A stretch of DNA of 35,721 nt, taken from the NCBI GenBank assembly GCA_945828295.1, contig CALZQV010000006.1:1-35721 (forward strand), read 5' to 3'. Of this stretch, positions 30,463-34,030 are shown piece after piece (positions within the stretch are counted from its first letter, which is position 1; each line of letters starts with the position of its first letter). The notes under the pieces were generated by a model. It saw only the letters and a program-made list of their open reading frames with translations. It made no database searches and was not told the DNA's origin. The position numbers were made by a program, and so were the translations under genes. Source of the stretch: an uncultured Prevotellaceae bacterium (lineage in GTDB: Bacteria > Bacteroidota > Bacteroidia > Bacteroidales > Bacteroidaceae).

Positions 30463-33400
30463 TTATTTTACTAAAATCTTTTTACCATTCACGATGTTTA
30501 CACCCTTGTGCATACGGCTCATGCGCTGGCCTGCGAGGTTGAAGATAGCTTCCACCTCCTCACGAGTGGCAGTGCGAGTTTCCGTGATGCCAGTGGTTTC
30601 ATCCTCAAACACAAGAGTGAAGTCTTTCACACCAGTACCAGTCGGGATGCTCGTCTCTTTGATATATGCCTTGCCGGCAGAGATATTACCTGAACCGTTG
30701 TTGACAACAAATTTGTTGCCCGACAGGCCATAGGCAGTACCAGCTTCAACGTATGTGGGAGCGAGGGTGCCTACAAGTTTGTTGTCGTTGGAATCGAACT
30801 CGGTTGTGCCGTCAGCAAAAGTAACTGTAACGTTGCTGGTGTTCACACCGTCAGCGTCCTTGTTGTAGAGGACGACGCCCTGACCACCCTTAATCTTATC
30901 CGCAATCTTTTTAAACGTAATAGCGCCCTCGCTGGTAATTTCGCTTACACGCCAAGCGGTATAGCCCGTTGTGTTCGTGAAGTCGATGGGGTTCACTGAG
31001 CAGTATGTAGCATATCCATACTTATTAAGAGTAACATTGGCTGAAGGTATATTATATGCCTTTATGGTGAAGTCCTTTACTTCCCACATACCATTTGCAT
31101 TCGTTCCACTGGGAGTATAGCGGAAAATGAAGTGTACTGTCTTCCCAGCATAGTCGCTAAGGTCGATATCGCCCGAATTAACAAAAGTCCAGTTGGTACC
31201 GCCGAACCAATTAGGAATTGTTAGTTCAACCGGAGTTTCAGAACCTTCTTGAACAAACAACTTACATACTGTTTTCTTATTGGAGGATATTTTGTTTCCT
31301 ACATGGCTAAAGTAAACAAACGGCTCGCAATAACCTGACAAGTCAAAGTCCTCAGTAACCATGTCATAGTTTGTATCTTCGACTCCATTGTTTGTTGTTT
31401 CACGGCCAGCAACGGCTCCATATTTGGCTTCATAATGCCACAAGTTACCTGCGTCTGTAGTCCAGCCAGCAGGCAGGCCTGTGCCCTCGGTTTCAATACG
31501 CTTATAAAGTTGAATAGCATCACCCACAGGGAATTCTGTGAGGCCGGCAGGAGCATTGACAGTCACAGGAATCACTACAGGGCTACCTGCGGTATAGAGG
31601 TTTTCTGCGTCGGCAGGGGCTGTGATGGTGATAGTTGTTGAACCAACGGCTACGGCAGTCACCTCTCCACTGGCGTTAACAGTGGCAACGGACGTATTGG
31701 CACTTTCGTAGGTTAGTGTTCCAGCATAGTCGGCAGATACGGCGGCACCAATAGCCTCGGCAGCATCGCCGTAAGTCATATCTACATCGTTTGCCGTAAC
31801 AGCAACAGGAGCCGACACGCTAACACTGCGTTTTACGCTCACCATTCCATAGTTCTCCGTATCCACGGGAGTAATGGTACAGGTTATCGTTGCTGTACCA
31901 CGACCAACTGCAGTGTATGCGCCAGTCGAGGCATTCGTAATCTCAATTACACTGCTATTACTTGAAGTCCATGTCTTTGTGCAATCATCGGCATCGGTAG
32001 AAGTCGCAGCAAATGTACCCGTAGCATCTTTAGCCAACGTGCCGGGATCAGTAATTGTCACATCTGTTGAGATTGGAGTCTTCAGCGGAGTGATGGTGAT
32101 GCCAGTAAACACTGCATATGTACCATCTCCCTGTATTGTGATGGTTGTGCTGGTCTTTGTTGTGGTCAAAGAATTCGTTCCGCTATTTGTTCCATCGGAA
32201 ATGATAACATTGTTGGTCTTTTTCGTCGTTCTGATGGTGAAGCCATGATTACTTTTAATCGTAGGAGATGTAACCTTGCCAGTTGTAACCTTAATTTGCC
32301 AGCCATCATTATTGTAATAACCGTTAACCTCTTTCCATGTATAAGAGTTCCCATCGGAGCCTACTATTTCACAATCCCGGTTTCCATACGAATCCCCAAG
32401 CATGGTTTGATTCCACGAACCAAACGTTATTCCCTCCCCAGTCGTCCTTAAATCAATAGCGCCGTCAGAGACGGTAACTACGCAAGCAGCAGACTTAGTA
32501 TTATCTGCATTCGATTTAGCGGTGATGGTGGCCGTACCGAGGGCAATCGCTGTTACCACACCTGCGGAAGAGACAGTGGCCACGCCTGTGTTATCCGATT
32601 CCCAGTTCACGGTCTTATCTGTAGCATTTGTAGGAGATACGGTTGCGGTCAGTGTCAGATACTTCCCTACCATTAATAAGGCAGTGGCCCTATTTAATGA
32701 AACACTGGATACAGCTGTGGGTTTAACCGTGACGGCGCAGGTTGCGGTCTTTGTGTCATCTGCCACGGACTTCACGGTGATGGTGGCCGAGCCAACGCCA
32801 ACGGCCGTTACAACGCCATCAACTACAGTAGCTACGTCCTCGTCACTCGACTCCCATGTCACAGCCTTGTTTGTGGCATCAGCAGGAGAGATGGTTGCGG
32901 TCAGAGTCTCGGCGTCGCCTGCCTCCATCGTTACAGAGGTCTTATCGAGCGTAACGTCAGTAACGGCAATGGGAGCCGTTACGGTTACGGTGCATTCAGC
33001 CTTAATGCTGCCATTAGAAGGCGACTTGGCACGGATAGTTGTGGAACCAACTGCTACGCCAGTTACAACGCCATTGCTCACCGTGGCAATATCCGTATTA
33101 TCAGACTCCCACATAACGGTTTCACTCGTGTTTGCTGGGGCAACAGTCGGAGTCAGAGTCACATTACCACCAACAGCGACACTTGCCGTTGCGTCCATCG
33201 TGATTGACGTAATGGCAACGACTGCTCTCTTCTTGTATATATAAGGTTTGCTTTGTCCTGACGTATACTGAGAGAATAATTTACTCGTACCATTAAATGC
33301 TAAATAATATGAAGTGTTTTTCACATTTTGAACAGTAAAGACACTGTTGGCAGCAGACAAGGTCCACGCAGAAGTAGTGGTGGGTGCAGTAGACGCCGCT

Positions 33401-33765
33401 GTCGTGTTCGTCTTAAGATTATTCTTTGAAGTGCTTGCAGAATAAATATATCCGCTGCCCGTGTGGAAGCCAAAATTACTGCCATTCTTCTTTACTACAA
33501 ACACCTGCACATTATCAGAAGAAGAATAGGTGTAGGTGTGGTCAGTAACTGTAATTGATACCGGTGTGCGGTTGTTTGTGTTTTGTGTTGTTCCACAAGC
33601 ATGGGTCTCAGCCTGATTAACAAAGATGACTTCGTCACCATCGGCCAAACTGGTCGCATCTGAAATGCGTTCAAAGACGTCTCCGTTACTTACAGCCCAC
33701 GAGGTTGTGGAGCCTGCTACGAGGGAGAATAGCAGGAGCATTGTTTTAAGTAAAAGTTTTTTCAT
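30463..33765 (-). CDS. Large secreted surface protein with tandem Big_2 (Ig-like) domains and a T9SS-like C-terminal tail
   Basis: Signal peptide MKKLLLKTMLLLFSLVAGSTTSWA; repeated 'VTLDKTSVTMEAGDAETLTATISPADATNKAVTWESSDEDVATVVDGVVTAVGVGSATITVKS'; C-term 'IFNLAGQRMSRMHKGVNIVNGKKILVK'. Confidence 0.92.
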   Translation of the reverse strand: MKKLLLKTMLLLFSLVAGSTTSWAVSNGDVFERISDATSLADGDEVIFVNQAETHACGTTQNTNNRTPVSITVTDHTYTYSSSDNVQVFVVKKNGSNFGFHTGSGYIYSASTSKNNLKTNTTAASTAPTTTSAWTLSAANSVFTVQNVKNTSYYLAFNGTSKLFSQYTSGQSKPYIYKKRAVVAITSITMDATASVAVGGNVTLTPTVAPANTSETVMWESDNTDIATVSNGVVTGVAVGSTTIRAKSPSNGSIKAECTVTVTAPIAVTDVTLDKTSVTMEAGDAETLTATISPADATNKAVTWESSDEDVATVVDGVVTAVGVGSATITVKSVADDTKTATCAVTVKPTAVSSVSLNRATALLMVGKYLTLTATVSPTNATDKTVNWESDNTGVATVSSAGVVTAIALGTATITAKSNADNTKSAACVVTVSDGAIDLRTTGEGITFGSWNQTMLGDSYGNRDCEIVGSDGNSYTWKEVNGYYNNDGWQIKVTTGKVTSPTIKSNHGFTIRTTKKTNNVIISDGTNSGTNSLTTTKTSTTITIQGDGTYAVFTGITITPLKTPISTDVTITDPGTLAKDATGTFAATSTDADDCTKTWTSSNSSVIEITNASTGAYTAVGRGTATITCTITPVDTENYGMVSVKRSVSVSAPVAVTANDVDMTYGDAAEAIGAAVSADYAGTLTYESANTSVATVNASGEVTAVAVGSTTITITAPADAENLYTAGSPVVIPVTVNAPAGLTEFPVGDAIQLYKRIETEGTGLPAGWTTDAGNLWHYEAKYGAVAGRETTNNGVEDTNYDMVTEDFDLSGYCEPFVYFSHVGNKISSNKKTVCKLFVQEGSETPVELTIPNWFGGTNWTFVNSGDIDLSDYAGKTVHFIFRYTPSGTNANGMWEVKDFTIKAYNIPSANVTLNKYGYATYCSVNPIDFTNTTGYTAWRVSEITSEGAITFKKIADKIKGGQGVVLYNKDADGVNTSNVTVTFADGTTEFDSNDNKLVGTLAPTYVEAGTAYGLSGNKFVVNNGSGNISAGKAYIKETSIPTGTGVKDFTLVFEDETTGITETRTATREEVEAIFNLAGQRMSRMHKGVNIVNGKKILVK

Positions 33766-33819: not shown

Positions 33820-33959
33820 AAAAAAAGCGCAGGTCTTCACCATACGCTACTCGGGTCTAGGCCAACCCCCATCCACTATGGGAGACCTGCGCATACGCGC
33901 ATGTCCCATATGTGGGTGGTATTGTTCTTTCACTTTTCGAGGGCCTAGTTCGAGTAGCG
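33820..33959 (-). ncRNA. Candidate attenuator or structured leader RNA with two mutually exclusive folds
   Basis: Nested palindrome 33845-33959 versus the alternative hairpin GCGCAGGTCT (33892-33883)/AGACCTGCGC (33836-33827) followed by U7. Confidence 0.7.
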
Positions 33960-33976
33960 ACATGAACAACAAAAAG

Positions 33977-33994
33977 GTATTTCCGCCGAAATAC
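33977..33994 (-). promoter_or_regulatory. Short perfect hairpin near the predicted transcript start
   Basis: GTATTTC-CGCC-GAAATAC; minus strand continues CTTTTTG. Confidence 0.4.
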
Positions 33995-33998
33995 GCTG

Positions 33999-34030
33999 CA
34001 AAATTACTACTTTATTTTGTCATAGCCAAA
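33999..34030 (-). promoter_or_regulatory. Bacteroidetes-type promoter upstream of the structured leader
   Basis: Minus strand TTTG (34030-34027)-N20-TAATTTTG (34006-33999). Confidence 0.72.

Follow-up and report, generated by a model that had tools for sequence, protein, structure and literature searches.

The window analysed here, a stretch of 35,721 nucleotides from an uncultured Prevotellaceae bacterium, carries on its minus strand a gene (30463..33765) for an 1100-aa exported protein with Big_2 Ig-like domains (Pfam Big_2, E 1.7e-46, four stretches). The N-terminus of this protein, MKKLLLKTMLLLFSLVAGSTTSWA, is signal-peptide-like, and its C-terminal IFNLAGQRMSRMHKGVNIVNGKKILVK bears what we take to be a resemblance to the sorting tails of secreted Prevotella proteins. 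Just upstream of the RNA element described below lies a gene for an MNT-type nucleotidyltransferase (34646-34323, minus strand; NTP_transf_2), followed by an apparent broken HEPN partner split over two frames (region 34646-34160, minus strand). The stretch between the start of the MNT gene and the promoter reads like a decayed MNT-HEPN toxin-antitoxin pair, a possibility inferred from sequence alone.

The leader of the 1100-aa protein gene, all parts of which lie on the minus strand, begins at a promoter of the Bacteroidetes -33/-7 type, TTTG-N20-TAATTTTG (33999..34030), identified by letter-by-letter reading. A 5'-terminal hairpin, P0 (GTATTTCGGCGGAAATAC, 33977..33994), is located at about +1; it was obtained by folding of the leader and is also present in homologues. 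The conserved RNA core (33823..33970) is matched by two covariance models (R1, 138 bits, E 2.5e-32; R2, 127.3 bits). From 5' to 3', the leader further comprises the H1 5' strand TTGTTC (TTTGCTC in the family; 33964..33969), the P1 5' strand CGCTACTC (33952..33959), the P2 5' strand CTAGGC (33943..33948), the H1 3' strand GAACAA (family GAGCAA; 33922..33927), the P3 5' strand CCACCCAC (33912..33919), strand A (GACATGCGC, 33897..33905), the switching strand B (GCGCAGGTCT, 33883..33892), the hexamer CCCATA (33877..33882), the P3 3' strand GTGGATGG (33869..33876), the H2 5' strand GGGT (family RGGY; 33865..33868), the P2 3' strand GCCTAG, which doubles as the H2 loop (33857..33862), the H2 3' strand ACCC (family RCCY; 33853..33856), the P1 3' strand GAGTAGCG (33845..33852), TATGG directly 3' of P1 (33840..33844), strand C, which forms the 3' side of the terminator stem (AGACCTGCGC, 33827..33836), and the terminator U-run, T7 (33820..33826). 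The ATG of the 1100-aa protein (33765) follows about 55-60 nt past the T-run.

All elements of this leader were checked letter by letter. The original prediction had claimed the promoter, a set of nested helices, a 10-bp alternative pair and the T7 run, and every one of these was found in place, with a single blemish. Complementarity is perfect between 33845-33853 and 33951-33959, 33857-33863 and 33942-33948, 33878-33883 and 33904-33909, and 33888-33892 and 33897-33901, as it is in the competing 10-bp pair (33883-33892 with 33827-33836), after which T7 follows (33826-33820). The helix CCATCCAC/GTGGGTGG (33869-33876 with 33912-33919) held only in part, being the sole imperfect one, with one C-A mismatch. 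Several parts had gone unmentioned in the prediction, namely the 5' hairpin (33994-33977), H1 (33969-33964 with 33927-33922), H2 (33868-33865 with 33856-33853) and the terminator extension CCATA:TATGG (33881-33877 with 33844-33840). In the window copy, CCCATA is also able to pair with TATGGGA just 5' of strand A. The minimum free energy of the leader is -82.1 kcal/mol, against -59.3 +/- 4.4 kcal/mol in 200 dinucleotide shuffles (z = -5.19), and the homologous cores reach a median folding z of -5.15 (n = 142).

Distribution of the element and the genes behind it

Homologues were initially collected by a DNA similarity search in 120 relatives, in which same-genus genomes were found to carry the element, several of them in two or three copies. 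Relatives were also sought via the downstream protein, and none was found in this way; the conserved unit is the RNA rather than the protein. Covariance model R1 was built from a MAFFT alignment of 18 of the homologues. It matched 83 of the 139 genus genomes searched, 135 of 400 in the family (15 of 30 genera) and 22 of 395 in the order (12 of 208 genera), with E-values down to 3e-38. Several other Bacteroidales families thus also carry the element, and faint traces occur outside the order. A search with the second model, R2, in 346 class-level and 250 phylum-level genomes gave almost no matches and doubles as a negative control. Among the weak matches at class level, outside the order, two loci (L212 and L214; family f165) retain by eye the P1, P2, H2 and B:C pairings in a quite different sequence (B, GCGTGGG; C, CCCACGC); these look like true distant relatives and may hint at a wider superfamily. 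Those named contigs that carry a conserved 3' motif belong to MAGs of Prevotella, Prevotellaceae and Bacteroidaceae, mainly of ruminant origin. No match indicating a phage or plasmid origin was found in 50,697 phages, 72,556 plasmids and IMG/VR, using blastn or pattern searches, which do not reach the sensitivity of the covariance model.

Exhaustive counting in 16 genomes gave 4 to 11 copies per genome. The genome of the window itself holds a second copy (G000:C4:36940-37092; L060, L217), which sits 61 nt before a non-exported ORF resembling a DnaQ-type exonuclease and running off the contig. In a subgroup of homologues (L020, L023, L071, L075, L076, L078, L081, L090 and L092) the core measures ~178-185 nt as against ~150 nt; L020 and L023, the two that were aligned, carry the additional ~30 nt, which look like a hairpin, between the H1 3' strand and P3. 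Two loci of one genome (L013 and L029, genome G038) are paralogous, with near-identical promoters and downstream genes and with RNA cores that differ in the sequences of P1 and P3.

The placement of the element is shown by sequence evolution, as are its promoter, its U-run and the type of its regulon. Of 141 homologues, 124 have an exact TANNTTTG (-7 element) in the 130 nt upstream, compared with 8% in mononucleotide shuffles; its distance to the core is 27-42 nt in nearly every case, and the 5' hairpin stands between them (median z -2.2 in homologues, two size classes). On the other side, a U-run with T at 6-7 of 8 positions directly follows strand C in 132 of 142 copies, and in 134 of 142 copies the U-run is followed by a same-strand start codon, the median distance being 75 nt (IQR 68-83). 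The leader thereby lies between a promoter (124/141) and a start codon (134/142), as an attenuator must. A candidate conserved hairpin, P5, between the U-run and the start codon is visible by eye in many copies but too weak overall to be claimed (median z -0.66). Many copies, as at loci L193, L196, L184 and L208, show an inverted repeat of the type GTTAAACGTAT...ATACGTTTAA near the start codon, 3' of the U-run; this could perhaps constitute a second control point, a tentative suggestion given its weakness on average. A cobalamin riboswitch (RF00174, 48.8 bits; L184:3024-3153) is present in the same locus as one homologue, ~1.4 kb away.

The downstream proteins are mutually unrelated (mean column identity 8%), and it is therefore the element, not the gene, that recurs. 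What most of them share is export: 105 of 134 (78%) carry an export signal, compared with 58 of 221 (26%) among the remaining genes at these loci (p = 3e-22), as labelled by a simple hydrophobicity rule and not by SignalP. BspA-type leucine-rich repeats are present in 13 of 128 downstream proteins, and the other types include lipocalin-like lipoproteins (Lipocalin_4), Big_2 proteins, proteins with T9SS sorting tails and beta-barrels (OMP). Roughly one downstream gene in five does not look exported, among them the gene after the second copy in the window's genome; examples are AIPR, an SNF2-type helicase and an exonuclease-like protein. The downstream genes encode diverse, mostly exported proteins without a shared pathway that would point to a common ligand. 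Together, it is likely that the element belongs to a large and apparently undescribed family of RNA switches across Bacteroidales, standing at a fixed distance before many unrelated genes, with the switching itself inferred.

Covariation of two mutually exclusive folds

The helices of the core fall into two groups. In fold 1, P1, P2, P3 and P4 (A:B) are mutually nested; in fold 2, H1 (TTTGCTC:GAGCAA), H2 (RGGY:RCCY) and the terminator (B+CCATA with TATGG+C) are mutually nested, and each fold-2 helix crosses members of the fold-1 group. In the MAFFT alignment of 18 homologues, which was fitted to no structure, 89.7% of cells were paired, compared with 76.8% after shuffling and 29-46% when the partners were slid, and none of 500 shuffles reached the observed value. 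A larger alignment, A4, comprises 92 distinct sequences and was fitted to the fold-1 model, so that the fold-1 counts lean that way; H1, H2 and B:C were left out of the model behind it. Here, fold 1 together with H1, H2 and CCATA:TATGG was paired in 93.9% of cells (71.6% when shuffled), with two-sided changes at 41 of 47 pairs and a covariation score of 0.642 compared with 0.216. All 8 pairs of P1 covary (99.0% of cells paired), as do all 6 pairs of P2 (99.6%) and all 7 main pairs of P3 (98.3%).

The fold-2 helices show the same signature. The terminator pairing including its extension was paired in 91.4% of cells compared with 87.3%, with two-sided changes at 13 of 15 pairs; only 35-45% remained paired when the strands were slid, and 0 of 500 shuffles reached the observed value. 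Two-sided changes occur at 5 of 5 pairs of CCATA:TATGG (92.1% paired), which lengthens B:C, at 2 of 4 pairs of H2, where the inner pair is UA in 45 sequences and CG in 32, and at 2 of 5 core pairs of H1, the first being UA, AU or GC and the third CG or UA (TTGTTC/GAACAA in the window copy). The second copy in the window's genome has CTATG/CGTAG in place of CCATA/TATGG, a clear compensatory pair. A CTCG:CGAG hairpin was considered as the fold-1 partner of the H1 strand; it has only 3-4 bp, is largely invariant and could not be demonstrated.

The exchange of strand B was further assessed by a column-independent comparison of own and swapped partners. B binds its own A better in 83 of 92 sequences (p = 3e-15) and its own C better in 76 of 92 (p = 3e-12), or in 80 of 92 when the extension is included (p = 5e-13); these p-values assume independent sequences despite kinship and are optimistic. 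Both folds and their strand exchange are therefore supported by covariation, and it is because the single strand B keeps two exclusive partners that the element is read as a switch. Absence of covariation in homologous leaders had been named beforehand as an outcome that would refute the original prediction, and covariation was found; its central claim, an antiterminator/terminator leader for a surface-protein gene, is strongly supported by the covariation of B with both A and C in 92 homologues, by the placement between promoter and start codon and by the lack of an Rfam match. The stem directly before the U-run and the exclusive antiterminator sharing a strand with the terminator, both of which an attenuator requires, are present, as is a conserved structured domain of the kind expected in a metabolite riboswitch, in which P1, P2, H1 and H2 covary and unpaired AA and CCTC are conserved at >=93% in 92 sequences at both ends of P2. 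The lengths of P1, P2 and P3 are nearly fixed in the same sequences. Covariation cannot tell a replacement of fold 1 by the fold-2 helices from a partial coexistence of the two as pseudoknots, and either remains possible.

A putative attenuator and its rivals

The most probable reading is that the element represents a new class of RNA that attenuates transcription in cis and is probably an orphan riboswitch, serving a surface-protein regulon; we put its probability at roughly 0.78, with termination, read-through and the signal all inferred in the absence of transcript data. In this model, the promoter would start a ~230-nt leader whose core can form two exclusive nested folds. In fold 1, P1, P2, P3 and P4 would hold B with A, leaving C free, so that no terminator forms and the polymerase enters the gene. 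In fold 2, H1 and H2 would form and B+CCATA would pair with TATGG+C directly before the U-run as an intrinsic terminator, ending the transcript ~175 nt from its start. The sensor choosing between them would be the strictly conserved P1/P2/H1/H2 region with its fixed lengths and invariant unpaired bases; the signal is predicted to bind near the nearly invariant AA and CCTC at the ends of P2, an inference without binding data, and P2 might persist in fold 2 through a kissing interaction of the H1 loop with the H2 loop. The same element would drive up to 11 genes per genome, mostly for exported or surface proteins. A point against the attenuator reading is the long loop of the proposed terminator (about 45-55 nt).

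The energetics do not point one way. Taken as an isolated duplex, B+CCATA with TATGG+C outdoes A:B in strength in 92 of 92 sequences. When complete nested folds are compared with pseudoknots excluded, however, 83 of 92 sequences have the lower energy in fold 1, the median difference being 10.6 kcal/mol. The resting state at equilibrium is likely to be read-through, which is not settled, as duplex and whole-fold energies conflict and co-transcriptional kinetics remain open. Because the whole-fold energies favour fold 1 at rest, termination induced by the signal is inferred to be the sign of regulation, by a narrow margin. The nature of the signal is likewise inferred, with a slight leaning towards a small molecule over a protein. 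A bolder reading, which is slightly less likely than not, holds that the element is a new Bacteroidales-wide riboswitch class whose ligand, itself inferred, is a global small-molecule signal switching a whole surface-protein regulon by a terminator with two strand exchanges; these would be B between A and C, and the GAGCAA strand between H1 and fold 1.

Among the alternatives, the one that stays possible is a switch controlled by a protein, either one that binds RNA or a specialised antiterminator of the NusG type, with the leader as its landing site and the protein favouring one fold. The functionally diverse regulon, without a shared metabolic pathway hinting at a metabolite, would fit, and leader-based control by NusG paralogues (UpxY) and RNA-binding proteins occurs in Bacteroides. 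However, no regulator gene regularly accompanies the element, and the fixed helix lengths and invariant unpaired bases resemble a compact aptamer. The original prediction had itself offered a free-standing RNA of ~170 nt as an alternative, and this is not supported as the main function. A trans-acting sRNA of ~175 nt, with the downstream gene merely read through, could draw on the element's own promoter, 5' hairpin and terminator, and on its multiple copies in a genome, which some sRNA families show too; it is nevertheless unlikely, since it needs neither the tight start-codon distance (median 75 nt in 134/142) nor the bias towards exported proteins, and since both folds covary, including an antiterminator superfluous for a plain sRNA. 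The terminated leader may still act in trans as a by-product.

It is also unlikely that the helices all form together in a single pseudoknotted RNA of static function, as a 5' stabiliser, protein-binding element or ribosome-access structure, the U-run being incidental. H1, H2 and B:C do cross P1-P4, so that a pseudoknot is formally possible, and the helix lengths are fixed. Against this, B covaries with A and C yet cannot pair with both at once, the U-run directly after strand C is conserved, and no spacer separates P1 from TATGG (0 nt in 91 of 92), so that the full 15-bp B:C stem is hard to fit on an intact coaxial P1-P2-P3 stack. Very little speaks for a repetitive DNA element such as a palindrome or recombination site: the element is multi-copy and rich in inverted repeats, but it accepts G-U pairs at many positions and keeps a constant orientation relative to promoter, U-run and gene, and a DNA palindrome leaves two coevolving alternative pairings of one strand unexplained. 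That the element is a diverged 6S RNA, or belongs to some other class known to Rfam, is all but excluded within the reach of sequence and structure models. Only a loose shape (closing stem, bubble, terminal stem) supports it, whereas neither the window leader nor 20 divergent homologues match any of 4227 Rfam families, and the element occurs in up to 11 copies per genome in leader position, not as one or a few free-standing genes. The loose 6S likeness suggested in the original prediction is thus not supported.

Relation to known systems

In the comparison with Rfam that had been proposed at the outset, including 6S-Flavo and Bacteroidales-1, no family matched the window at gathering thresholds. 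With Rfam 15 and E up to 10, the leader returned only snoZ162 (19.4 bits against a gathering score of 45), a chance snoRNA match, and 20 divergent homologues gave no match over the element, so that no curated model of a riboswitch, T-box or ribosomal leader fits. The covariance models of 6S, 6S-Flavo (RF01685) and Bacteroidales-1 (RF01693) matched neither the leader nor its homologues, and RF01693 was not found in the window's own genome (assembly 83% complete). As far as searched, the element is not described in the main text of a 104-motif paper, a 26-genome study, a B. thetaiotaomicron transcriptome atlas or a human-microbiome study. It is therefore likely to be new relative to Rfam 15 and the literature searched, which excludes the 2017 collection of 224 motifs and the supplement of PMC8040213 (3161 candidates), so that the element may have been listed before without a name.

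Exported proteins are the means by which Bacteroidales, the dominant order in human and ruminant guts, interact with their environment, and the coordination of the genes for these proteins is poorly known. The element alone marks such a regulon, one RNA being kept across genera and families before up to 11 genes per genome, and as both competing folds can be read from evolution, the putative switch is directly testable by compensatory mutations. Should the signal prove to be a small molecule, the element would add a new riboswitch class, and one with a regulon in surface biology, to a phylum having few known.

Several known systems resemble the element in part. 6S, 6S-Flavo and Bacteroidales-1 RNAs share with it a size of about 180 nt, a Bacteroidetes-type promoter and a terminator, but the element is a multi-copy leader and not a free-standing RNA. 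Antitermination of surface-polysaccharide operons of the UpxY/LoaP type shares leader-based termination control of surface products, as is known of UpxY, whereas the element has a complex two-fold RNA and no operon-linked regulator was seen. Regulons of c-di-GMP (GEMM) riboswitches likewise have several copies per genome and diverse genes, many of them for surface or secreted proteins; unlike these, the element lacks an Rfam match in sequence or structure, has another architecture and is almost solely found in Bacteroidales. Most riboswitch expression platforms are variable, and a large sequence diversity has been reported for them (PMC13273304), whereas the whole platform of the element, including the terminator stem sequence, is kept across families of the order. 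Its genes also differ from those of terminator-type riboswitches in sharing only the export bias and no pathway, and no ligand or signal has been identified. With terminator-type riboswitches and attenuators it shares the leader position, a conserved domain upstream of the terminator, a switching strand common to antiterminator and terminator, and the U-run, and its mechanism, as inferred from sequence alone, is likely to be of this known kind.
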